Below are positions 5,144-16,479 of a stretch of 63,360 nucleotides of DNA, one piece after another (the first letter of the stretch is position 1; each line of letters opens with the position of its first letter). The position numbers were made by a program, and so were the translations under genes. Source of the stretch: Betaproteobacteria bacterium CG2_30_68_42 (GTDB lineage Bacteria > Pseudomonadota > Gammaproteobacteria > Burkholderiales > Rhodocyclaceae); contig MNXU01000030.1 in NCBI GenBank assembly GCA_001872285.1, forward strand, positions 1 through 63,360. The letters run 5' to 3'. The notes beneath the pieces were generated by a model. The model did not search any database, was not told the DNA's origin, and worked only from the letters and a program-made list of their open reading frames with translations.

Positions 5144-7006
5144 ATGTGCGGAATCTTCGGGCTCATCGGCACCCCTTGGCGCGAGCAGGCCGATCGGGCG
5201 CTCGCGGCCATCGACTCACGCGGCCCGGACGAGCGGACGCTGGTCGACGTGGGCGAGGCGAGGCTCGGGCACACACGGCTTTCGGTGATCGACCTCGCCG
5301 GTGGACATCAGCCGATGCTGAGTCCGGACGGGTCGCTCGCGCTGGTCTTCAATGGCGAGATCTACAACTTCCTCGAACTGCGGGTCGAGCTGGAAGCGCG
5401 GGGCTACCGTTTCGCCACCCGCTCGGATACCGAGGTATTGCTGCATGGGTACTCGGCCTGGGGTGACGATCTACCCATTCGGCTCGACGGCATGTTCGCC
5501 TTCGCGGTATGGGACGTTCGCCGCAGGCAGCTCTTTGCCGCGCGCGACCGGCTGGGCATCAAGCCGTTTTTTTATGCCATGCACCCAGGGTTCGCGTTCG
5601 CCTCGACATTGGCCCCCCTGCTGCGGATCGAGGGCTTTCCGCATGAGCTCGACTGGCAGGCGCTGCGCGACTATCTTGCCTACCAGACCTGCCTCGCTCC
5701 GGCGAGCTTTCTCGCCGGAGTGGCGCAGTTACCGCCGGCCTGCCGGTTGCGCTGGGATGCCGTGTCGGGTCGTCTGGACGTCGTGCCCTACTGGACAATT
5801 CCGGAACCGGGCGAAACGAGCCTCGGGCGCGACGAACTGGTTGAACGGACCGACGCTGCTTTGCGTGAAAGCGTTCGCCGCCAGCTGGTGGCGGACGTGC
5901 CGTTGGGCGCGTTCCTGTCAGGCGGCATCGACTCCAGCCTGGTGGTGCGCTACATGGCCGAGGCGGGCGCTCGTCCAGTCAAGACCTTCAGCCTGCGCTT
6001 TGCGGAATCGGGCTTCGACGAGACCGCGCATGCACTGGCGGTCGCCGATCGCTTCGGCTGCGAGCACCAGGTGCTCGACGCGCCGAGGATCGACGCCGAT
6101 GCCTTCACCGCCGCCATCGCCGATCTTGACCAGCCGCTCGCCGACCCGGCGTACGTCATGACCCACGCGCTTTCGCGGCTTACCCGCAGACACGTCACCG
6201 TGGCGCTGAGCGGTGATGGCGGCGATGAACTGTTCGCGGGCTATGGTCGCTATCGTATCCAGGCAGGTGATTTCCCCCGGCGTCACGGTCAATCGCTGCT
6301 GCGCGCGGCGGTGCTTAACGGCTGGCTGCCGGCCTCGCTGCTCAGACGAACCCTCTGGGGCGAGGAGCGCATGCTGTATCGTCAGGTCGAACTCGGGCCC
6401 TGGCCCGTGTCGCGCAAGAGTCTTGCCGCCTACCTGAGTCCGGACGTTCACGCCGCCTGCCGGATCGAGAACACGCTGGAGCGCTGGCGGACGCTCGCGC
6501 GAGGTTTCGCTGGACAGATGAATACCGCAAGGCTGATGCGCGCCGATCTGTGGACTTATCTCTCCGACAACTGCCTGGCGAAGACCGACCGCGCCAGCAT
6601 GGCACACGGGTTGGAAGTGCGCGTTCCAATGCTCGGTAATCCGGTATTGGACCAGGTGCTCCAGTGGCCGGCTGGTGTGCATTTCGATACCGGCGGTGGC
6701 AAAGCCATTCTGCGCGAACTGGCTCGCCGTCACCTGCCGGAAGCGGTCTGGAATCGTCCCAAGCATGGTTTCTCCGTTCCGCTGAGAGCGCTTTTCAACG
6801 GCCCCTGGCGGGCGCCCGGCGAGGAGCTGACCTCCCGCTGTGGCGACATCGCCCCCTTCCTCGACGCCCGCGCGGTCAGCCGGCTCTGGAGTGACGCCCG
6901 CGCCGGCAAGGCTTCGCTGCGCCTGGCATATACATTCCTGGTACTGCTCATCTGGCTCGACCGCAACCGGCTCCCGAGCCGAACAGCCCCGGATCTCCGG
7001 AGCTGA
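5144..7006 (+). CDS. asnB: glutamine-hydrolysing asparagine synthase-like amidotransferase
   Basis: This 620-residue protein starts MCGIFGLIG, so after Met removal Cys is the N-terminal nucleophile of the class II glutaminase domain. RGPDERT follows near residue 25. The synthetase domain carries the PP-loop SGGIDSS near residue 259. The start at 5144 is fixed by the need for Cys2. In glycan loci such AsnB paralogues probably amidate uronic acids or other carboxylates rather than make free asparagine; that role here is inferred from context. It begins 4 bases after the GT4 stop and is followed after 4 bases by the FkbM gene. Confidence 0.9.
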   Translation: MCGIFGLIGTPWREQADRALAAIDSRGPDERTLVDVGEARLGHTRLSVIDLAGGHQPMLSPDGSLALVFNGEIYNFLELRVELEARGYRFATRSDTEVLLHGYSAWGDDLPIRLDGMFAFAVWDVRRRQLFAARDRLGIKPFFYAMHPGFAFASTLAPLLRIEGFPHELDWQALRDYLAYQTCLAPASFLAGVAQLPPACRLRWDAVSGRLDVVPYWTIPEPGETSLGRDELVERTDAALRESVRRQLVADVPLGAFLSGGIDSSLVVRYMAEAGARPVKTFSLRFAESGFDETAHALAVADRFGCEHQVLDAPRIDADAFTAAIADLDQPLADPAYVMTHALSRLTRRHVTVALSGDGGDELFAGYGRYRIQAGDFPRRHGQSLLRAAVLNGWLPASLLRRTLWGEERMLYRQVELGPWPVSRKSLAAYLSPDVHAACRIENTLERWRTLARGFAGQMNTARLMRADLWTYLSDNCLAKTDRASMAHGLEVRVPMLGNPVLDQVLQWPAGVHFDTGGGKAILRELARRHLPEAVWNRPKHGFSVPLRALFNGPWRAPGEELTSRCGDIAPFLDARAVSRLWSDARAGKASLRLAYTFLVLLIWLDRNRLPSRTAPDLRS

Positions 7007-7874: not shown

Positions 7875-9067
7875 TGCCGGAGCGACTGCGCGTCGGCCTG
7901 CTGGTCGATACGCTGGTGGGCGGAGGCGCCGAGCGCATGTCGCTCACCTTCGCCGAATGCTTCCGGGCGATGGGACACGACGCTCACGTGATCCTCCTGC
8001 GTGATGTCGTCGAGCATGACACCCGTGGCGTGCCGGTTCACGCGCTCTCCGACACGGCCCGGCTGCATGCGTTGCGGCCGCTCAACAAGCTGATGCTCGC
8101 CCGACGCCTGCGGCAAACGGTGCGGCGTATCGAGGCAGACGGCAAGCCGTTCGATTTCTTCATCTCCAATGCCGAGGACATGGATCGCATCTCGGCCATG
8201 GCGCGTCTGCCGACGGTCTTCATCCGATACCGCAATTCTCTGCTGCTGTTCCTGCGGGCAAAGGTCGGCAACGCCACCGGTGTGAAGCGGTACATCCGGG
8301 CCTGGCGCTGGATGCGCAAGTTCAGGCGCATCTACGGCGGACGCCATATCGTTGCCATCTCGAAGGCGATGGAACGGGAGCTCGTTCAGGATTGCGGCAT
8401 CGAGCCGGCATCGATCACGACGATCTACAACCCGTTCGACTTCGAACGCATCCGCGCACTGGCGCAGGAACCGGCGGCGGACCTGCCCACCCAGCCTTAT
8501 ATCCTGTATGTCGCGCGCATGAGCGGGCGCAAGGACCAGGAAACGCTGATCCGGGCTTATGCCGAGGCGCGATTGCCGCACCTGTTGGTGTTGTTGGGCG
8601 GCACCACCAGTGCGAAGGAGGAGGCGTACCGCAAGCACATCGAGACGCTCATCGCCGAGCTCGGACTCGGCGGCCGGGTATTGATGCCGGGTTTCCGCGC
8701 CAACCCCTATCCCTGGATACGGCATGCGGCCCTGTTCGCCCTGTCCTCGCGCAGCGAGGGCCTGCCGCTGGTGCTGGTGGAGGCGCTGATCCTCGGCACC
8801 CCGGTGGTGAGCACCGACTGCCCGACTGGCCCGGGCGAGATCCTGGCCGGGGATCTGGCGCGTTTCCTCTCGCCGGTCGGCGACGTGCCGGCGCTTGCAG
8901 CCAACCTGCGCGCGGCCCTCGCCGGCTATCCGAAGATCGATCCGGCGCTCCTGGAGCGCTTTCGGGATGACTACGCCATCAATCGGTATCTGGCGCACTT
9001 CCGGAGGATCACAGGCGGTCGGGACCGAGCCACGCGAGCGCCCGCGGGCTCGATGAGAAGCAGGTAG
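7874..9067 (+). CDS. glycosyltransferase family 4
   Basis: This 397-residue GT-B protein opens with LLVDTLVGGGAERMSL, the GT4 N-terminal loop. It contains VARMSGRKDQETLIRAY in the donor domain and the E-x7-E motif SEGLPLVLVEAL near residue 293. The ATG at 7874 overlaps the FkbM stop and is preferred to an in-frame ATG 8 codons upstream. It resembles the product of the gene at 4048 in its C-terminal half (GTPVVSTDCPTGPGEIL), so the two may be old paralogues with different acceptors. Confidence 0.9.
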   Translation: MPERLRVGLLVDTLVGGGAERMSLTFAECFRAMGHDAHVILLRDVVEHDTRGVPVHALSDTARLHALRPLNKLMLARRLRQTVRRIEADGKPFDFFISNAEDMDRISAMARLPTVFIRYRNSLLLFLRAKVGNATGVKRYIRAWRWMRKFRRIYGGRHIVAISKAMERELVQDCGIEPASITTIYNPFDFERIRALAQEPAADLPTQPYILYVARMSGRKDQETLIRAYAEARLPHLLVLLGGTTSAKEEAYRKHIETLIAELGLGGRVLMPGFRANPYPWIRHAALFALSSRSEGLPLVLVEALILGTPVVSTDCPTGPGEILAGDLARFLSPVGDVPALAANLRAALAGYPKIDPALLERFRDDYAINRYLAHFRRITGGRDRATRAPAGSMRSR

Positions 9068-9070
9068 AAT
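9065..9070 (+). promoter_or_regulatory. possible -10 element (TAGAAT) before the NeuB-like cassette
   Basis: TAGAAT lies between the GT4 stop and the NeuB-like gene. No convincing -35 hexamer is seen at 16-18 bases upstream, so this is weak. It would let the cassette from the synthase onward be transcribed separately. It also argues against translation starting at the ATG at 9069, which lies inside the element. Confidence 0.3.
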
Positions 9071-9161
9071 GCGCGCCAGTCTGCCGGGTCGCTCGACGGC
9101 ACGACCCGTTCGTGCGTCGGTGCGCGCGGTAGCGCGAGATCAGGGATGGAGTGCCAGCAAG

Positions 9162-10025
9162 GTGCAAATTGCCAGTTTTGACGTCCCGCAACATGTTTTT
9201 GTCATCGCCGAAATCGGCATCAACCACAATGGCGAAATCGAAATCGCGAAGCGTCTGATCGACATGGCCATGCGCTGCGGTTGCGATGCGGTCAAGTTCC
9301 AGAAGCGCAGCATCGACATCGTTTACACGAAGGAAATGCTCGATTCGCCCCGTGAGAGCCCCTGGGGCGCGACGCAACGCGCGCAAAAGGAGGGACTGGA
9401 ATTCGGCAAGGCCGAGTACGACGAGATCGATCGCCAATGCCGCCAGAGGGGTATCGAATGGTTCGCGTCGGCGTGGGACATCCCGAGCCAGCTCTTCCTG
9501 CGCGACTACGGCTTGAAGCGCAACAAGATCGCATCTGCCATGGTGACCCACCCTGAGTTCCTGGAGGTGGTGGCCGAGGAGAAAAAGCCCGTTTTCCTTT
9601 CCACCGGCATGTGCACCTACGAGGAGATCGACCGCGCCGTCGCCGTTTTCGGCAAGCAGGGCTGCCCGGTCACCCTGATGCACGCGGTGTCCGAGTATCC
9701 CGCCCCGGAAGAGATCCTGAACATCGCCTGCATGCATGCCCTGCGCGAGCGCTACGGCTTGCCCGTCGGCTACAGCGGCCATGAGGCCTCGGTGTCGCCG
9801 AGCGTGATCGCCGCCGCCCATGGGGCGGTCGCCATCGAGCGCCACGTCACCCTCGACCGCGCCATGTATGGCAGCGATCAGTCCGCTTCGCTCGAAGAAG
9901 CCGGCCTGCGCGACATGGTCGCCATGATCCGCAAGATCGCCATGGTTCTGGGGGACGGCGAAAAACGCATCACCGTCAAGGAAGAGGGCGTTGCCAGCAA
10001 ACTTCGCTACTGGAATCCAAGATAG
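9162..10025 (+). CDS. NeuB-like N-acetylneuraminate synthase family protein without SAF domain
   Basis: This protein of about 287 residues has the NeuB TIM barrel: AEIGINHNG near residue 16, VKFQK, KIASAMVTH, LSTGM, LMHAVSEYP, GYSGHE and ERHVTLDR with GSDQ. These match the PEP- and metal-binding landmarks of sialic-acid-type synthases, which condense PEP with an aldose to give a 2-keto-3-deoxy acid. It ends right after the barrel (SKLRYWNPR), so the C-terminal antifreeze-like SAF domain of classical NeuB (about 345 residues) is absent. I prefer the GTG at 9162 with GGAG 10 bases upstream; an ATG at 9069 would add 31 non-conserved residues. The substrate is unknown. Confidence 0.85.
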   Translation: MQIASFDVPQHVFVIAEIGINHNGEIEIAKRLIDMAMRCGCDAVKFQKRSIDIVYTKEMLDSPRESPWGATQRAQKEGLEFGKAEYDEIDRQCRQRGIEWFASAWDIPSQLFLRDYGLKRNKIASAMVTHPEFLEVVAEEKKPVFLSTGMCTYEEIDRAVAVFGKQGCPVTLMHAVSEYPAPEEILNIACMHALRERYGLPVGYSGHEASVSPSVIAAAHGAVAIERHVTLDRAMYGSDQSASLEEAGLRDMVAMIRKIAMVLGDGEKRITVKEEGVASKLRYWNPR

Positions 10026-10034
10026 CAGCAAGGC

Positions 10035-10802
10035 ATGGCGAGTAAGCGCGTCGTGCTGGTGATCCAGGCCCGGATGGGATCCGCCCGACTGCCTGGCAAG
10101 TCGATGATGGACCTCGCCGGTGCGCCCCTGGTCGGGCGCATCCTGGAGCGTGTCAAGCGCTGCCGGAGGATCGACGAAGTCGTCCTGGCCATCCCGGATA
10201 CCGCCAGCGATGCGGTGCTCGGCGACTTGGGCCGGCGCTACGGGGTCGCCGTCTTCACGGGTCCGGAAAACGATCTGGTGGAACGCTATTATCAGGCCGC
10301 GCTCGCCTTCGATGCTGATATCGTGGGGCGGCTGCCGGCCGACAATGCCACCCCGGAACCGGAGGAGATCGACCGCATCGCCGACCACCACCGCATGCTC
10401 GGCCGCCGAGGTTTTTCCTCCAATCTCACCACGGTGGGCGACAATGGCTATCCGGATGGCATTGGCGCGGAGATGTTCGATTTTTCCCTGCTCGCCGAGG
10501 CTCGGCAAAGGCATTCCGATCCGCGCCGGCGCGAGCATGTCCACCTCAACTTCTTCGACTATTCGACACAGACGCCGGTGGATGCCGACTGGTGTCCGGT
10601 CAGCACCGTAGCCTGTCCGCCGGAATTTGCACGTCCAGATCTCGTGCTGGATGTCAATACGCAGGCGCAGTACGAGTTCATGCGCCAGCTCTACGAAGCG
10701 TTGTACCCGAAGAATCCGGAGTTCCACATCACGGACATCCTCGCCTGGTACGACAACATCTACCGGCCGCAGCATCCGCAGCCCGAGCCATGCCCCAGCT
10801 GA
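10035..10802 (+). CDS. SpsF-like cytidylyltransferase (CMP-sugar acid synthetase family)
   Basis: This 255-residue protein begins with VLVIQARMGSARLPGK, the nucleotide-binding signature of the CMP-NeuAc/CMP-Kdo synthetase superfamily in its SpsF branch. LPADNATPEPEEIDRI follows near residue 98, where related enzymes have a metal-binding Asp. Next to a NeuB-like synthase, activation of its 2-keto acid product with CTP is the natural inference. It overlaps the HAD phosphatase gene by 13 bases. Confidence 0.82.
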   Translation: MASKRVVLVIQARMGSARLPGKSMMDLAGAPLVGRILERVKRCRRIDEVVLAIPDTASDAVLGDLGRRYGVAVFTGPENDLVERYYQAALAFDADIVGRLPADNATPEPEEIDRIADHHRMLGRRGFSSNLTTVGDNGYPDGIGAEMFDFSLLAEARQRHSDPRRREHVHLNFFDYSTQTPVDADWCPVSTVACPPEFARPDLVLDVNTQAQYEFMRQLYEALYPKNPEFHITDILAWYDNIYRPQHPQPEPCPS

Positions 10803-11146
10803 CCTACTGTTTCGATATCGATGGCACCCTGTGTACCAATACCGAGGGTGACTACGAGCATGCCGAGCCTTACCCGGATGTGATCGCCGAGGTGAATCGC
10901 CTGTTCGATGATGGCCATACCATCATGCTGCTGAGCGCGCGCGGCACGACCACCGGCATCGACTGGCGTCCGGCCACGGAGCGCCAGTTGGCGGCATGGG
11001 GCGTCCGCTATCACGTTCTCCATCTCGGCAAACCCAGCGCCGATGTCTATGTCGACGACAAGGCGATCAATGCGCTCACCTGGCGCCGCGACGGCTTTGT
11101 CAGCGAAGCCGAAGCGCTCATCATGGAAAGGAAATTCAGCGGATGA
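10790..11146 (+). CDS. HAD-like phosphatase of capsule/glycan loci
   Basis: This is a short HAD protein of 118 residues with the catalytic FDIDGTL motif near residue 8, a motif II SARG near residue 50, and a C-terminal GKPSADVYVDDKAIN carrying the Lys and acidic pair. No cap domain is present. In nonulosonate routes a phosphatase removes the 9-phosphate after PEP condensation with a phosphorylated aldose. A similar step here is plausible but inferred. It overlaps both neighbours. Confidence 0.82.
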   Translation: MPQLTYCFDIDGTLCTNTEGDYEHAEPYPDVIAEVNRLFDDGHTIMLLSARGTTTGIDWRPATERQLAAWGVRYHVLHLGKPSADVYVDDKAINALTWRRDGFVSEAEALIMERKFSG

Positions 11147-12129
11147 ATGCCTCAGGTCGCGTCGTCTTTTTCAACGGCCAGCTCGTTCCCGAGGCCGAGG
11201 CCCGCATCTCGATCTACGACTCGGCGCTGATGTTCGGCGACATGGTGTTCGAGATGACCCGCTCGTTCGGCAAACGGCAGTTCAAGCTGCGCGAGCATGT
11301 CGAACGGCTGTATGCCGGCATCAGGATCCTGCGCATCCCGCTTTCCATGACGCCGGAGGAGATGGAGCAGGCGTGCCAACAGACCATCGAGGCGAACGAT
11401 CCGCTGTTCGCGGCCGACGACGAGCATCGGCTGATGATCGACGTGTCGCGCGGCCTGCTCGGCATCTACCAGGACGTGGCCGGCCTGCAGAAGGGGCCGA
11501 ATGTCATCATCGCCGACTTTCCGCTGCGCTGGACGGTCGCCGGAATGAGCAAGCTGTTCGACACCGGCATCAACGCGGTCATCACTTCGCAGCGCGCCAT
11601 TCCGGCGAGCCTGCTGGATCCGAAGATCAAGAATCGCAGCCGCATCCATTATCTGATGGCCAACATCGAGGCCTCGCGGATTCCCGGCGACAACAACTGG
11701 GCGCTGCTGCTCGACCCGGACGGGTTCGTCGCGGAGGGCACGGGAGACAACTTTTTCATCGTCAAGGACGGGGTCGTGATCACGCCGGAGGGCCGCAACA
11801 TCCTGCGCGGCATCTCCCGCGCCTACCTCATCGAGGAACTGTGCCCGCAGCTCGGCATCCCGGCGATGGAGAAGAACATCGATGCCTACGACGTTCATAC
11901 GGCGGACGAGGCCTTCATGACCGGCACGCCGTTCTGCATGCTGCCGGTCACGGCCCTCGACGGCAACCCGATCGGTGCCGGCCGCGTCGGCCCGATTTTC
12001 ACCGCCTTGCTCGAACGCTGGGGTGCCGAGGTCGGCGTCGACATCCCCGGCCAGATCCGGGCCTGGGATGCCGTTCGGCCGCGTGCGGCGGCGGACGCGC
12101 CCACCCCCTACCGCTTTAAGTCGAGGTGA
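11143..12129 (+). CDS. class IV aminotransferase (branched-chain/D-amino acid type), PLP-dependent
   Basis: This 328-residue protein has the fold-type IV order: ISIYDSALMFGDMVFEM near residue 22, then an IKNRSRIHYLMAN segment near residue 165 whose Lys is the likely PLP Lys. FVAEGTGDNFFIV and NILRGISR follow, then DEAFMTGTPFCMLPV. Such enzymes transaminate 2-keto acids such as the branched-chain ones. Finding one inside a NeuB-like cassette is unusual, since sugar aminotransferases of glycan loci are normally fold type I (DegT). It could act on a 2-keto acid or feed an amino-acid substituent; this is speculation. Confidence 0.82.
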   Translation: MNASGRVVFFNGQLVPEAEARISIYDSALMFGDMVFEMTRSFGKRQFKLREHVERLYAGIRILRIPLSMTPEEMEQACQQTIEANDPLFAADDEHRLMIDVSRGLLGIYQDVAGLQKGPNVIIADFPLRWTVAGMSKLFDTGINAVITSQRAIPASLLDPKIKNRSRIHYLMANIEASRIPGDNNWALLLDPDGFVAEGTGDNFFIVKDGVVITPEGRNILRGISRAYLIEELCPQLGIPAMEKNIDAYDVHTADEAFMTGTPFCMLPVTALDGNPIGAGRVGPIFTALLERWGAEVGVDIPGQIRAWDAVRPRAAADAPTPYRFKSR

Positions 12130-12959
12130 GCCATCCCGTCGGCATCATGCAGGGGCGCCTGCTGCCGCCCTTCGAAGGCCGCTTCCAGGCCTTTCCCGCT
12201 GTCGGCTGGCAGGAGGAATTTCCGCGCGCGCGGGCGGCGGGCCTCGCCGGCATCGAGTGGATCTACGAGATCCCTCACGAGGATGAGAATCCCTTGCGCA
12301 CCGATGAGGGACTGGCGCAGATGCGGCGGCTGATGGGGGAGACCGGGGTCCTCGTGCGTTCCATTTGCGCAGACTGTTACATGCAGTCCCCTCTGGTGGT
12401 GGATGGACGACCGCAACGGATCAGGGTCGATCACCTCGAATGGCTGCTTGCACGCGCGGCGGCGCTCGGTGCGTGGTATGTCGTCCTGCCCTTCGTCGAT
12501 GCGTCCTCGCTCAGGACTGCTGCCGATCGCGATGCGCTCCGGGCGGTCCTGGGCGAGGTGCTGCCCGTGGCCCGGAGGCTCGGGGTGGAAATCCACCTCG
12601 AAACCGATCTTCCGCCACAGGAATTCACGGGGATGCTGGCCGGATTCGACGACCGCTGGCTGAAGGCGAATCATGACATCGGCAACAGCGCCGCGCTCGG
12701 CCACGACCCGGACGAGGAGCTGCGCATCCTCGGCCCGAGGATCGGCAGTGTGCACGTGAAGGATCGCGTCCTGCGTGGCGCAAGCGTCGCCCTGGGCACC
12801 GGAAACGCCGACTTTCCGAGCTCGTTCCGCCTGCTGCGCGCCGCCGGCTACGCGCGCCCCTTCATCCTGCAGGCCTCGCGTGGCGTTGAAGGCGAGGAAA
12901 CGACCTGGGCCGGCCACAACCGCGAATTCGTCGAGCGGCAATTGGCCGCGCTGCCATGA
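12126..12959 (+). CDS. sugar phosphate isomerase/epimerase-like TIM barrel
   Basis: This 277-residue protein starts at a GTG overlapping the aminotransferase stop (GTGA). It has the AP-endonuclease-2/xylose-isomerase-like TIM-barrel pattern: GIMQGRLLPP at the N-terminus, GIEWIYE, VEIHLETDLPP with a metal-ligand-type Glu, ANHDIGNSAALGHDP, and IGSVHVKDRVL with His/Lys near the metal. Relatives isomerise or epimerise sugars or sugar phosphates. In the cassette it could supply the aldose precursor of the NeuB-like synthase. Reaction unassigned. Confidence 0.78.
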   Translation: MSHPVGIMQGRLLPPFEGRFQAFPAVGWQEEFPRARAAGLAGIEWIYEIPHEDENPLRTDEGLAQMRRLMGETGVLVRSICADCYMQSPLVVDGRPQRIRVDHLEWLLARAAALGAWYVVLPFVDASSLRTAADRDALRAVLGEVLPVARRLGVEIHLETDLPPQEFTGMLAGFDDRWLKANHDIGNSAALGHDPDEELRILGPRIGSVHVKDRVLRGASVALGTGNADFPSSFRLLRAAGYARPFILQASRGVEGEETTWAGHNREFVERQLAALP

Positions 12960-13738
12960 ATCTCGGCCTGACCGACAAGGTGGCCCTGGTCTCCGGTGCC
13001 AGCCGCGGCATCGGCTTTGCGATCGCCGCCGGCTTCGCGGCGGAGGGCTGCAAGGTTGCCATCACGGCCCGGAATCAAGGCCTGCTGCACGCCGCCGCCG
13101 AACGCCTGGCGGACAGCGCCGGCGCCGGCAGGGTCCTCGCCATCGCGGCCGACATGGCCGACGAGGGGGCGGTTGCCGACCTGCTGGAACGCGTCGAATC
13201 CCGCCTCGGGCCGGTCGATGCGGCCGTGGCCAATGCCGGCAGCGGCGCGGCGCGCGACGGGATCGAGCTGACGCGGTCCGACTGGCAGGCGGCGCTCGAT
13301 GCGAACCTGTTCCCGGCGGTGGTGCTGGCCGGCGCGCTGCTGCCGCGGATGGCCGCCCGCAGGCAGGGCAGCCTGACACTGGTGAGCTCGATCGCCGGTA
13401 TCGAAGCCATCGGCGCGCCCATTCCCTACGCGGCCGCGAAGGCGGCGCTGGATGCGGCCGTCAAGGGCTATGCGCAATGGGTGGGCGCAGCCGGTGTGCG
13501 GGTCAATGCCGTGGCGCCCGGCAATGTCTTTTTCCCCGGCGGATCCTGGGCCCGGAAGTTCGAGGATGCCGGAAGCAAAGCCCTGTTCCTCGAGTACATC
13601 GAGCGTGAGGTGCCACTGCGCCGCTTCGCCACTCCACGGGAGATCGCCGATGTCGTGGTCTTCCTGGCCTCTGCCCGGGCCGGCTTCGTGACCGGTGCCG
13701 TGGTGGCGGTCGACGGCGGCCAGCTTCGTTCCGTTTGA
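12956..13738 (+). CDS. short-chain dehydrogenase/reductase (classical SDR)
   Basis: This 260-residue classical SDR has VSGASRGIG near residue 13, VANAGSG near 92, VSSIAG near 142, and the catalytic YAAAK near 159. The C-terminus is VTGAVVAVDGGQ, as in FabG-like enzymes. It overlaps the TIM-barrel gene by 4 bases. It would oxidise or reduce a hydroxyl/keto group of the cassette's sugar intermediate using NAD(P)H. The substrate is not determinable. Confidence 0.85.
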   Translation: MNLGLTDKVALVSGASRGIGFAIAAGFAAEGCKVAITARNQGLLHAAAERLADSAGAGRVLAIAADMADEGAVADLLERVESRLGPVDAAVANAGSGAARDGIELTRSDWQAALDANLFPAVVLAGALLPRMAARRQGSLTLVSSIAGIEAIGAPIPYAAAKAALDAAVKGYAQWVGAAGVRVNAVAPGNVFFPGGSWARKFEDAGSKALFLEYIEREVPLRRFATPREIADVVVFLASARAGFVTGAVVAVDGGQLRSV

Positions 13739-13746
13739 GTCGATCG

Positions 13747-14616
13747 ATGTCTGCGATCTGTTATCTCTGCGGCAGCGGCCGGCGGCATCGCAAGGAAGGC
13801 CGCGTGCGGGACGCCCCCGAACTCCCGATCTGGGAGTGCGAGGGATGCGGGCTGGTCTCTCTCGGCGCGGGAGTGGGTCGCGACGGCGATTTCTATGCGG
13901 ATTCCGGCATGCACGGGAGCGAGGCGCCGGATGCGCAGGCCTGGTTGCGGGAGAGCGAGCGTGACGACCGCCGGAGGATCGCGTTCCTGGCGAGCAGGCT
14001 GGCGGGCAGCAGGCTACTCGACTTCGGTTGCGGCGCCGGGGGCTTCCTGGCCCATGCGGGAGCGCTTGCGACGAGCGCCACCGGTATCGAACCGGAGCGC
14101 CGTCTCGCCGGGCATTTCCGAGCTCTCGGCCTGACGGTGCACAGCGACCTCGGGGCGCTGCCGGAGGACAGCCGGTTCGACCTGATCACCGCCTTCCATG
14201 TCATCGAGCATCTCGCCGATCCGCGCGAGATCCTGCGGCGACTGGCGGCGCGGCTCGCAGATTCGCGCTCCGGGTTGATCGTCGAGGTGCCAGCCGCAAC
14301 CGATGCCCTGCTGAGCCTCTACCGCAGCAGCTCCTTCTCGAATTTCACCTATTGGAGCTGCCATCTCTACCTGTTCGATGCTTCCACCCTGCGCCGGCTC
14401 GCCGAACAGGCCGGCTTGCGCGTCGACTTCATCCGCCAGGTCCAGCGTTATCCGCTTTCCAACCACCTGCATTGGCTCGCCGCCGGCCGGCCGGGCGGAC
14501 ACCGGACCTGGGCCTTCCTCGATACCCCGGAACTGGAGCGGGCCTACGAATCGACCCTTGCCTCGCTCGGATTGTGCGATACCCTGATCGCCGGATTCGC
14601 CCTTGCATCGGAATGA
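13747..14616 (+). CDS. class I SAM-dependent methyltransferase with N-terminal zinc-binding motif
   Basis: This protein of about 289 residues starts with a CYLCGS and CEGCGL pair, a small treble-clef-like zinc motif. A Methyltransf_23-type fold follows, with RLLDFGCGAGGFLAHA near residue 95 and LITAFHVIEHLADPREIL near 150. I chose the ATG at 13747; a TTG at 13735 overlapping the SDR stop is an alternative adding four residues. It probably methylates the sugar product or a late glycan intermediate. It ends in an ATGA overlap with a 44-codon ORF. Confidence 0.83.
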   Translation: MSAICYLCGSGRRHRKEGRVRDAPELPIWECEGCGLVSLGAGVGRDGDFYADSGMHGSEAPDAQAWLRESERDDRRRIAFLASRLAGSRLLDFGCGAGGFLAHAGALATSATGIEPERRLAGHFRALGLTVHSDLGALPEDSRFDLITAFHVIEHLADPREILRRLAARLADSRSGLIVEVPAATDALLSLYRSSSFSNFTYWSCHLYLFDASTLRRLAEQAGLRVDFIRQVQRYPLSNHLHWLAAGRPGGHRTWAFLDTPELERAYESTLASLGLCDTLIAGFALASE

Positions 14617-14747
14617 TTCCGCAGCCCGTGCGAACAGACCTCCCGAGTGCTGCGGACCGCGGCCGATCCCTTTTGCGTCGAGCACCGGCGGTGCAGCAGA
14701 CGCCGCGCAAGGGCGAGTACATCGAAGCGCTGGAGGCCTCCGGATGA
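14613..14747 (+). CDS. small coupled ORF, 44 codons, unknown function
   Basis: An ATG at 14613 overlaps the methyltransferase stop (ATGA). The frame runs 44 codons to a TGA at 14745 that overlaps the ATG of the next SDR (ATGA at 14744). This double 4-base coupling is the same arrangement as among the proven-looking neighbours. The product is basic in its first half and ends KGEYIEALEASG. No signal peptide or known domain is visible. It could be a genuine small protein or the worn remnant of a larger domain. Confidence 0.5.
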   Translation: MIPQPVRTDLPSAADRGRSLLRRAPAVQQTPRKGEYIEALEASG

Positions 14748-15586
14748 GCCGAACCGCACGCGTGCGTGACGCCTTCGATCTCGACGGACGCGTCGTGGTC
14801 ATCACCGGGGGCGCGGGACTGCTCGGTGTCCGTCATGCGGAGGCGGTTGCCGAGCTGGGCGGCATCCCGTGGCTGGTCGACATCGATGCCGGACGTGCAG
14901 AAGCGGCGGCGGCGTCGGTGCGCAAGGCGTTCGGTGGTGCCGCGGTCGGCGCGCTCGCCGACATCCGCTCGGCGGAGGCCGTCGGCCTGCTGCGGGACGA
15001 GATCCTGGCCCGGCATGGGCGGATCGACGCCCTGATCAACAACGCCGCCAACAATCCCAAGGTCGAGGCCGGCACCGGCGGCGAGCACTGGTCACGCTTC
15101 GAGAACTTTCCTCTCGATGTCTGGAACGAGGACATCGCGGTGGGGCTGACCGGTGCCTTCCTGTGCAGCCAGGTCTTCGGAACCGCGATGGCGGCGGCGG
15201 GCCGCGGCGTGATCCTGAACATCGCCTCCGATCTCGGTCTGATCGCGCCCGACCAGCGCATCTACCGCGAGCCCGGCGAGAGTGTCGATGGCCAGAGGGT
15301 GAAACCGGTCACCTACTCGGTGGTGAAGGCCGGTCTGATCGGGCTGACACGTTATCTCGCCACCTACTGGCCGCATCGCGGAGTGCGCGCCAACGCCCTC
15401 GCGCCGGGCGGCGTCTTCGCCGGGCAGGACGAGGGTTTCGTTCAACGCCTCACCAACCTCATCCCGATGGAACGCATGGCCGATCCGGACGAGTACAAGG
15501 CGGCGGTGGCGTTCATGATCTCCGATGCCTCCAGCTACATGAATGGTGCGGTGATTTCGATCGACGGCGGCCGGACGGTCTGGTGA
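14744..15586 (+). CDS. PtmA-like SDR oxidoreductase of glycan loci
   Basis: This 280-residue SDR has ITGGAGLLG near residue 21, NNAANNPK near 102, NIASDLGLIAPDQRIY near 162, and the active-site YSVVKAGLIGL near 190. The end is SSYMNGAVISIDGGRTVW. The TGGAGLLG start and the DLG...IAPDQRIY insertion are, from memory, typical of the PtmA group in flagellin-glycan and legionaminate-related loci of Campylobacter. That supports a link to nonulosonate-like chemistry. It is coupled on both sides (ATGA upstream, GTGA downstream). Confidence 0.82.
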   Translation: MSRTARVRDAFDLDGRVVVITGGAGLLGVRHAEAVAELGGIPWLVDIDAGRAEAAAASVRKAFGGAAVGALADIRSAEAVGLLRDEILARHGRIDALINNAANNPKVEAGTGGEHWSRFENFPLDVWNEDIAVGLTGAFLCSQVFGTAMAAAGRGVILNIASDLGLIAPDQRIYREPGESVDGQRVKPVTYSVVKAGLIGLTRYLATYWPHRGVRANALAPGGVFAGQDEGFVQRLTNLIPMERMADPDEYKAAVAFMISDASSYMNGAVISIDGGRTVW

Positions 15587-16479
15587 TCGTGAAGGAACTC
15601 AAGAGGCGCGTTCGGCCGCGATGGGTCAGCGATGTGCGCGGGTGCCTGGTGTCGCGCCACCGCCTCGCGGGACTGACGCGGCGTTTCGGGCTGCGCCCCC
15701 TGTCCGGCAATCCGCTCGCCCGCGTGAAGAAGAGCGACACCCTGTTCATCCTCGGCAGCGGCGATTCCATCAACGAGATCCGCGCCCAGGAGTGGTCGCA
15801 AATCTCGTCGGCCGATTCGCTCGGATTCAACGGCTGGTATCTGCACGCGTTCGTGCCTTCGGTATTCGTCACCGAGCCGGGCAAGGATCTCGACCAGCTC
15901 GCGCTCGAATATGCCAGTATCGAAAAGCGCTACGCGGGGCGAGACACCCCGATCCTGATCAAGGATATGGAACGCTACCGCCGGGAGGAGATGGCGTCCA
16001 TCCTGGAGGTGATGCCGCGCCGATTGCACCCGCGGATCGCGCTGACCTGGGACTGGGAACTCCGCGAGGACGACCCCGCTCGATTCAGCGCCAGGCTTGC
16101 CCGGCTGGCGCGCCTGGGCATCGTCACCGGCGCCGGTTACCCGGTGATCCGGACTCGATCCTCGGTGTTCTACTTGCTCGTGCTTGCACTGCGCGCGGGC
16201 TACCGGCGGATCGTGCTTTGCGGCATCGATCTCAACGGTTCGGAATATTTCTATGAAGCGTGCCGGTCTTCGCTCGAAGCCGAAGGCTATTGGGTACCCC
16301 CGCGGCGACCGCTGAGCGCGACTCACAAGACCGAAGACCCCGGCTTCGGACCGGTGACCGTCTCGGTGGCGCTCGATGCGCTGCATGCCGAAGTGCTGCA
16401 CAAGCTGGATATCTCGCTGTATGTCGCATTCCGGTCCTCCAAGTTGTACTCGATCTTTCCCGCCTACTTCGGCCGCTAG
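15583..16479 (+). CDS. putative glycosyltransferase with GT42 (CstI/II sialyltransferase)-like motif order
   Basis: This 298-residue protein starts at a GTG overlapping the SDR stop. It has FILGSGDSINEI near residue 50, comparable to the GNGPSL nucleotide loop of bacterial GT42 sialyltransferases. LALRAGYRRIVLCGIDLNG near 205 resembles their GYKEIYLSGIDF. THKTEDP near 245 sits where GT42 has the HSKNTD loop with the catalytic His. The end resembles their SLLA region (SLYVAFRSSKLYSIFPAYF). The same fold also occurs in DUF115/MptE-like proteins, so this is a motif-level suggestion. Downstream of a CMP-sugar cassette it would be the natural transferase. Confidence 0.6.
   Translation: MIVKELKRRVRPRWVSDVRGCLVSRHRLAGLTRRFGLRPLSGNPLARVKKSDTLFILGSGDSINEIRAQEWSQISSADSLGFNGWYLHAFVPSVFVTEPGKDLDQLALEYASIEKRYAGRDTPILIKDMERYRREEMASILEVMPRRLHPRIALTWDWELREDDPARFSARLARLARLGIVTGAGYPVIRTRSSVFYLLVLALRAGYRRIVLCGIDLNGSEYFYEACRSSLEAEGYWVPPRRPLSATHKTEDPGFGPVTVSVALDALHAEVLHKLDISLYVAFRSSKLYSIFPAYFGR

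Follow-up and report, generated by a model that had tools for sequence, protein, structure and literature searches.

The gene at 9162-10025 on the forward strand of the window (i.e., the whole stretch of DNA that was analysed, 63,360 nt) encodes a protein of 287 residues, which begins with a GTG codon and upon translation contains no internal stop. The longest open reading frame in the same frame starts at an ATG at 9069 (318 aa), and the called ORF of the closest relative (L024, 79% identical) starts four residues upstream of the equivalent of 9162; a start near 9162 is plausible. On the minus strand, an open frame of 588 aa (9009-10775) lies opposite the synthase and cytidylyltransferase genes and is probably a mere consequence of the high G+C content. 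The genes downstream of the synthase are listed in Table 1. From the synthase onward, the gaps between consecutive genes are +9, -10, -7, -4, -4, -4, +127 and -4 bp, i.e., mostly overlaps, and the genes are therefore considered to form a tightly packed operon.

Table 1. Synthase gene and downstream operon: features, positions in the window and the evidence for each assignment.
Feature	Position	Strand	Evidence
SAF-less NeuB-type synthase, 287 aa	9162-10025	+	Pfam NeuB 229.4 bits, no SAF; AlphaFold pLDDT 94.9, pTM 0.91
C-terminal tail of the synthase, E274-x5-K280-L281-R282	9981-10007	+	Conserved in the branch; aligned with the SAF start of SAF-bearing relatives
Cytidylyltransferase (CMP-sugar synthetase), CTP_transf_3	10035-10802	+	Pfam 69.1 bits; under all NCBIfam equivalog cut-offs
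Small HAD phosphatase, 117 aa	10793-11146	+	HAD motif residues, Foldseek
Class IV aminotransferase	11140-12129	+	Pfam 154.2 bits
Xylose-isomerase-like TIM barrel (AP_endonuc_2); fused to the synthase in L074	12126-12959	+	Pfam 84.7 bits
SDR oxidoreductase 1	12956-13738	+	Pfam adh_short_C2 172.4 bits
SAM methyltransferase	13735-14616	+	Pfam Methyltransf_23 90.8 bits
SDR oxidoreductase 2	14744-15586	+	Pfam adh_short_C2 122.9 bits
Coupled 298-aa protein without family match	15583-16479	+	Unmatched in Pfam (0.1) and NCBIfam (0.001); 4 bp overlap with SDR oxidoreductase 2

The small ORF that follows the cytidylyltransferase gene was suggested in the initial annotation to supply a cap in place of the missing SAF domain. 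This proposal was rejected: the protein carries the HAD motif residues D8, D10, K80, D88 and D89, invariant in all six aligned homologues, and its predicted fold best matches small sugar phosphatases. The best Foldseek match is the D-arabinose 1,5-diphosphate phosphatase AfhF (9iqw, E 9.8e-7), followed by other HAD proteins including KdsC, in a model of moderate confidence (pLDDT 75.4, with residues 92-117 below 50). The match to the NCBIfam model EcbF-BcbF is weak (25.2 of 162 bits).

No gene for a SIS isomerase was found in the window operon. In L024, a GmhA-type SIS isomerase gene (13477-14109) lies between the methyltransferase gene and that of the second SDR oxidoreductase, where the window has the 127-bp gap (14617-14743); loss of the isomerase in the lineage of the window is possible. 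Two SIS_2 genes elsewhere in the genome, 43 and 49% identical to the L024 isomerase, might serve the pathway. The coupled 298-aa protein at the end of the operon is a possible member of the pathway; relatives of this protein (36-53% identity) occur in L024, L071, L073, L082 and L083.

The Pfam NeuB module (PF03102) occupies residues 32-268 of the synthase and is matched over its full length (profile positions 1-241 of 241; 229.4 bits versus a cut-off of 22.1), which places the protein in the NeuB family. At E<=0.1 there is no other Pfam match, neither to SAF nor to DAHP_synth_1 (PF00793). Among NCBIfam models the best is NeuB_NnaB (246.4 bits), and the protein scores below the equivalog cut-offs of TIGR03569 (246.4 against 399.65 bits) and TIGR03586 (171.9 against 340.25 bits). 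An AlphaFold model, computed with 46 family sequences as input, is of high confidence, and the solved structures nearest to it are NeuB-type synthases, namely 2wqp (Z 35.1, rmsd 2.2, 255 aligned residues) and 6ncs (Z 34.9), followed by DAHP and KDO-8-P synthases (Z 23 to 21). Of the top eight structure matches, 6ncs (285 residues) is the only one without extra length of the size of a SAF domain. This solved structure, of a Leptospira borgpetersenii protein designated "N-acetylneuraminic acid synthetase", has a chain of 290 aa with no room for SAF; it is the best Foldseek match (E 1.4e-24) and aligns by VIA with model residues 4-287 at an rmsd of 4.1. Unlike the window synthase, with which it shares 29-31% identity, 6NCS lacks both the KFQKR and the RESPWG motifs and has an Asp at the place of Glu134 of NmeNeuB, the sialic acid synthase of Neisseria meningitidis.

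The initial annotation had described the gene as a NeuB-like synthase devoid of the SAF domain, and this description is borne out: the barrel profile is complete, and the search for SAF-like sequence suggested there yielded none in the entire window. It had also considered that a frameshift might conceal a SAF domain. No SAF was detected by Pfam or by the profile search of the window, and only 9 bp separate the synthase stop from the next gene; therefore a SAF domain hidden by a frameshift or carried by a neighbouring gene of the window is ruled out. The whole genome (99.97% complete) contains one NeuB, the synthase of the window, and two SAF domains, both on other contigs, which belong to FlgA and to a DRL-type oxidoreductase.

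Comparison with other SAF-less family members was likewise proposed in the initial annotation. A scan of genome contigs identified 156 stretches encoding a relative, of which 80 loci, the upper limit of the scan, were kept; L003-L005 were left out because they duplicate the window or L024. The 80 synthases are 56-79% identical to that of the window and derive mostly from metagenome-assembled genomes of Pseudomonadota, Omnitrophota, Elusimicrobia, Verrucomicrobia, Lachnospiraceae, Pelagibacteraceae, Actinomycetota, Planctomycetota and others, including one archaeon. Pfam SAF was absent from all 46 sequences of the alignment of relatives and window, and a SAF profile built here found no match in any of the 80 synthase ORFs. 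In 76 of the 80 the ORF is 270-315 aa long. Two of the outliers (L069 and L027, 330 and 356 aa) have matches that begin at residues 54 and 58, respectively, and thus carry N-terminal extensions in the ORF call; L074 (579 aa, 7995-9734) is a natural fusion to a xylose-isomerase-like barrel, again without SAF; and in L099 (217 aa) the ORF is cut by an in-frame stop. The branch ORFs end where the SAF-bearing relatives start an "ARRSL" strand, and the tail motif E-x5-KLR is conserved among the 80 relatives (E 79, K 76, L 79, R 76). Since the 80 relatives share it, the SAF-less architecture is that of a real and widespread branch and no accident of truncation.

An in-frame stop within an otherwise intact frame was observed in two branch members, L099 (6538 onward) and G097:C21:48218-49045, and may represent a sequencing error, a pseudogene or recoding.

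In a tree of the barrels, 81 branch members form one group separate from 23 other NeuB-type barrels, with a support of 1.0 before and 0.837 after re-rooting. The neighbours of the branch are L020, which has both a SAF domain and an adjacent HAD gene, and L015, a distant SAF-less synthase that also contains KFQKR and adjoins a cytidylyltransferase-HAD fusion (support for L015 with L020, 0.237). Next to these is L008, a NeuB-SAF-TIM fusion. Among 249 sampled genomes of the phylum of the window, the branch profile detected 14 genes in 13 genomes at 358 bits or more, and the next group scored at most 308.5 bits.

Active-site residues were enumerated in the 80 relatives and in 22 longer NeuB proteins, the latter classed by alignment, with Pfam SAF confirmed in L008, L009, L020 and L072 and with many of the others recurring among the control loci described below. 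L012 (263 aa, with an ORF that stops within the barrel profile) and L015 (no SAF) were left out of this set. Like NmeNeuB (1xuu, 2wqp), with which it shares the barrel, the window synthase retains the residues corresponding to E25, K53, Q55, K129, S132, Y186, S213, H215, E234, H236 and D247. The PEP/metal residues among them (E25, K53, K129, S132, S213, H215, E234 and H236), whose roles we take from passages of PMC6795526, from section 6 of PMC7591256 and from general background on the family, are each found in 79 or 80 of the 80 relatives. In the numbering of the window synthase, E17, K45, K122, S125, S205 and H207 are invariant, and E226, H228 and D239 are missing solely from L099, in the gap after its stop.

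The PEP-site motifs had been called intact in the initial annotation, which holds for the PEP/metal residues but not for the whole site. The place of Glu134 is taken by Met127 in the window, and among the relatives it is occupied by Met (74), Leu (4), Thr (1) or Ser (1), with no acidic residue in any, as opposed to Glu (14), Asp (7) and Ala (1) in the longer proteins. Asp214 of NmeNeuB is replaced by Gly206, a Gly in all 80 relatives and an Asp in 21 of the 22 longer proteins, and S147, the equivalent of Ser154, is Ala in 19 of the 80. Lacking the SAF domain, the window synthase also lacks Arg314, which in passages of PMC6795526 is the sole SAF residue in the NmeNeuB active site and touches ManNAc; in Caulobacter NeuB the equivalent substitution, R322A, yields an inactive enzyme (section 6 of PMC7591256).

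The branch possesses a set of basic residues of its own. K48, R49 and K76 occur in all 80 relatives and R64 and R73 in 79, versus none of the 22 longer proteins for K48 and K76, two for R49 (L008 and L020) and three each for R64 and R73; NmeNeuB has Thr, His, Val and Tyr in place of K48, R49, R73 and K76, respectively. Residues 66-81 match by sequence alignment residues 70-85 of nmNeuB, a region tied to C4-C6 of the aldose in section 7 of PMC7371886. K48 and R49 directly follow the equivalent of Gln55, listed in passages of PMC6795526 as lining the NmeNeuB active site. At the place linked to the C2 substituent, which is Gly in Neu and Leg synthases and Phe in Pse synthases (PMC7371886, section 7), the window synthase has Ala126. 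An Ala is present at this position in 77 of the 80 relatives.

KPRTS or KANRSS serves as the phosphate-binding motif in the KdsA/DAHP synthase family. A correspondence between the RESP motif of the branch and KPRTS of DAHP synthases was considered and is not used as evidence. In hhalign comparisons with class I-beta DAHP synthases, the branch gave a local alignment starting from PRESP/PRTSP (E 5.4e-6), and the longer NeuB proteins gave a better overall alignment without the motif (E 4.9e-13); in a global alignment, a gap has to be opened in the DAHP synthase immediately ahead of PRTSP. PRxSP is present in 48 of the 80 relatives only, and Pro63 is not conserved. Four KdsA sequences gave no useful hhalign alignment with the branch.

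To assess the gene company of the branch, ORFs adjacent to the synthases were clustered and turned into profiles, and the 8 kb around each of the 80 synthases were searched with these. The most frequent neighbour is a cytidylyltransferase (68 loci), followed by HAD (46), SDR (41), GmhA-type SIS isomerase (38), xylose-isomerase-like barrel (31), class III aminotransferase (23), VOC protein (21), class IV aminotransferase (19) and DegT (12). The HAD proteins are KdsC-like in 41 loci and of the subgroup of the window in five. Among the 52 loci flanked by 4 kb or more on each side, HAD is found in 38, SIS in 28, either in 41, both in 25 and DegT in eight. The best NCBIfam matches are phosphoheptose isomerase models for the isomerases, and KdsC and KDN-9-P phosphatase for the HADs, in both cases below the curated cut-offs. 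In many Lachnospiraceae loci the isomerase and HAD form a single protein, and in others the cytidylyltransferase is fused to the HAD.

As controls we used 19 loci of the order of the window with a longer NeuB, 18 of which carry a Pfam SAF domain in the synthase. By profile count, these loci contain no HAD, one SIS, 17 DegT and no xylose-isomerase-like barrel, although the control synthase L106 carries such a barrel as a fusion partner. Inclusion of L020, a short SAF-bearing locus with an adjacent HAD, brings the HAD count to 1 of 20. Fisher tests of HAD (38/52 versus 1/20, p 1e-7) and SIS (28/52 versus 1/19, p 2e-4) are descriptive only and ignore relatedness. The HAD and SIS profiles derive from SAF-less loci, the controls represent one order as opposed to many phyla, and independence cannot be assumed for related loci. 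The curated KdsC model TIGR01670 has hits in 20 of 21 genomes, and its hits lie next to NeuB only in G008 (L020) and G051 (the SAF-less L015); no hit lay near the synthase in any of the 18 genomes from which the 19 controls were drawn. The association with HAD may predate the loss of SAF, because L020 and L015 adjoin the branch in the tree and L008 comes next, with uneven supports. We do not claim that the loss of SAF caused the use of phosphate, as L020 has both SAF and HAD.

The initial annotation had envisaged a different substrate, perhaps smaller or differently charged. The evidence indirectly supports a more anionic aldose, and nothing indicates a smaller one: a phosphorylated aldose is suggested by the invariant basic residues at or beside the aldose end and by the phosphatase and sugar-phosphate isomerase genes that accompany the branch. 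Judging from the alignment, the branch lacks the SAF arginine and is more positively charged where the opposite end of the aldose would lie, as would be expected if a terminal phosphate replaced the 2-acetamido group.

We consider that the absence of SAF, the confidently predicted barrel, the retained PEP/metal residues, the conservation of the branch and its gene association are best explained by an active SAF-less synthase of the NeuB family that operates in a Kdo/Kdn-like route on an aldose phosphate, followed by a phosphatase and CMP transfer (probability roughly 0.57). In such a route, an isomerase encoded in or outside the operon would convert a ketose phosphate to the aldose phosphate, and the synthase would condense PEP with the terminally phosphorylated aldose to give a 3-deoxy-2-ulosonic acid phosphate. 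The HAD phosphatase would then remove the phosphate from the ulosonate, and the cytidylyltransferase would activate the product to a CMP-sugar destined for a surface glycan. The aminotransferase, the xylose-isomerase-like barrel, the two SDR enzymes and the methyltransferase could act before or after these steps, on the aldose precursor or in decoration of the sugar. The part played by SAF in NmeNeuB, where Arg314 of the partner holds the acetamido side of ManNAc, would be dispensable here, and the aldose would be held by the branch-specific basic residues of the barrel and perhaps also by the short KLR tail.

Phosphate use has precedent in the family, since the Kdn-9-P synthases of Bacteroides thetaiotaomicron and Prymnesium parvum are NeuB-family enzymes that use Man-6-P, with a HAD phosphatase and CMP transfer thereafter (passages of PMC6200933). 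The reading also draws support from Azospirillum thermophilum, where the SAF-less synthase with its own HAD gene coexists with a SAF-bearing NeuB (see below), and from the distant L015, which combines KFQKR with a neighbouring cytidylyltransferase-HAD fusion. Like the phosphosugar-using ulosonate synthases of the Kdo or Kdn type, the window synthase has a HAD phosphatase partner in its operon; unlike the Kdn-9-P system, compared by description, its cluster adds aminotransferase, isomerase-like, SDR and methyltransferase genes. KdsA-type enzymes lack a SAF domain as well (passages of PMC6795526), and KDO-8-P synthases have a related barrel (Z 21-22); by sequence, however, the window synthase matches NeuB rather than DAHP_synth_1. 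The SIS isomerase, HAD phosphatase and cytidylyltransferase partners of the branch resemble those of the Kdo pathway, but the isomerase is GmhA-like rather than KdsD-like and is absent from the window operon.

Several observations count against this Kdo/Kdn-like reading. By the models used here, 34 of the 80 loci (14 of the 52 well-flanked ones) have no HAD and 42 of the 80 have no isomerase; the isomerase genes of the window genome lie outside the operon; and the HAD of the window is of the rarer subgroup. Linkage to HAD also occurs without SAF loss, as exemplified by L020, and human NANS has a SAF domain and uses ManNAc-6-P. Moreover, the HAD and SIS profiles come from SAF-less loci, the control loci from one order, many loci are related, and the residue argument is based on alignment. 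As a tentative extension, which we regard as possible rather than probable, the branch may have its own route to CMP-activated sugar acids, comprising a GmhA-type isomerase, the SAF-less synthase, a KdsC-type phosphatase, a CMP transferase and the addition of amino, methyl or other groups, which would yield a 3-deoxy-ulosonic acid distinct from Neu, Leg, Pse, Kdn and Kdo. Such a product would have ten carbons if the isomerase keeps specificity for sedoheptulose 7-phosphate.

The alternative that survives best, appreciably less probable than the Kdo/Kdn-like reading and yet to be taken seriously, is an active SAF-less synthase that uses an unphosphorylated aldose without the 2-acetamido group held by Arg314. 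The phosphatase and isomerase would then serve earlier steps, e.g., dephosphorylation of the aldose before condensation, and gene content does not fix the order of steps. This reading is favoured by the C2 side of the substrate pocket, which differs given Ala126 and the loss of Glu134, and by the well-flanked loci that have no HAD. Against it stand the invariant basic residues in the aldose C4-C6 region, and the KdsC-type HADs match best, below cut-offs, models of phosphatases that act on ulosonate phosphates.

It is rather unlikely that the protein is a legionaminic, pseudaminic or sialic acid synthase that lost SAF and kept its old substrate. The best NCBIfam model, NeuB_NnaB, would fit such an enzyme, yet both equivalog cut-offs are missed, and the protein differs from classical synthases of these sugars in lacking both SAF and an acid at the Glu134 place. 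The SAF arginine is needed in such enzymes, to judge from the R322A result (PMC7591256, section 6), and a DegT aminotransferase, as in Leg/Pse clusters, lies close to 12 of the 80 synthases (eight of 52), compared to 17 of 19 controls. A plasmid of Azospirillum thermophilum (L147, NZ_CP029359.1) bears on both sides of this question. It codes for a SAF-less synthase, 68% identical to that of the window, with its own HAD, TIM and SDR genes, near an annotated legionaminic-type cluster (LegB/LegC) from which it is split by an IS21 element. The proximity of LegB/LegC speaks for the old substrate; against it, the same plasmid has a second, SAF-bearing NeuB, and the presence of all three on one plasmid argues that the two NeuB proteins make different sugars. 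A full-length SAF-bearing paralogue is also present in seven of the 80 loci, and thus both kinds of NeuB coexist.

Provision of the SAF function in trans by another protein, such as the product of the small coupled ORF, appears very improbable. Outside full-length NeuB paralogues, the SAF profile built here matched in one of the 80 loci, L051, where a 270-aa protein (5559-6371) is encoded 1.6 kb upstream of the SAF-less synthase; its first half is unrelated, and it also contains the terminal part of a NeuB barrel plus a SAF domain. This protein is the one observation in favour of trans provision; the small ORF of the window encodes a phosphatase, the two SAF proteins of the genome are FlgA and the DRL-type oxidoreductase, and the remaining SAF domains in the related loci belong to the full-length paralogues. 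Least credible is an inactive remnant or pseudogene, an outcome that the initial annotation had raised and with which the loss of SAF and Glu134 would agree: the PEP/metal residues are kept in practically all 80 relatives across phyla, the operon is tightly packed and the fold is predicted with confidence (pLDDT 94.9).

A SAF-less NeuB protein is not new per se, as 6NCS is already in the PDB, and branch members, where annotated, carry the database label "N-acetylneuraminate synthase family protein". A search of the open-licence PMC literature found no paper on SAF-less NeuB or on this gene set, and the conserved branch with its phosphosugar gene company is apparently uncharacterised.

In the studied NeuB, PseI and LegI enzymes the SAF domain is treated as essential, as illustrated by the inactive R322A variant and by Arg314 (passages of PMC7591256 and PMC6795526), and here a conserved branch dispenses with it. 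Should the substrate of this branch be a sugar phosphate, it would show a NeuB barrel working like KdsA. The branch also flags clusters of genes across many phyla, gut Lachnospiraceae and marine Pelagibacteraceae among them, and these clusters, if the proposed route is correct, may make a new acidic sugar.
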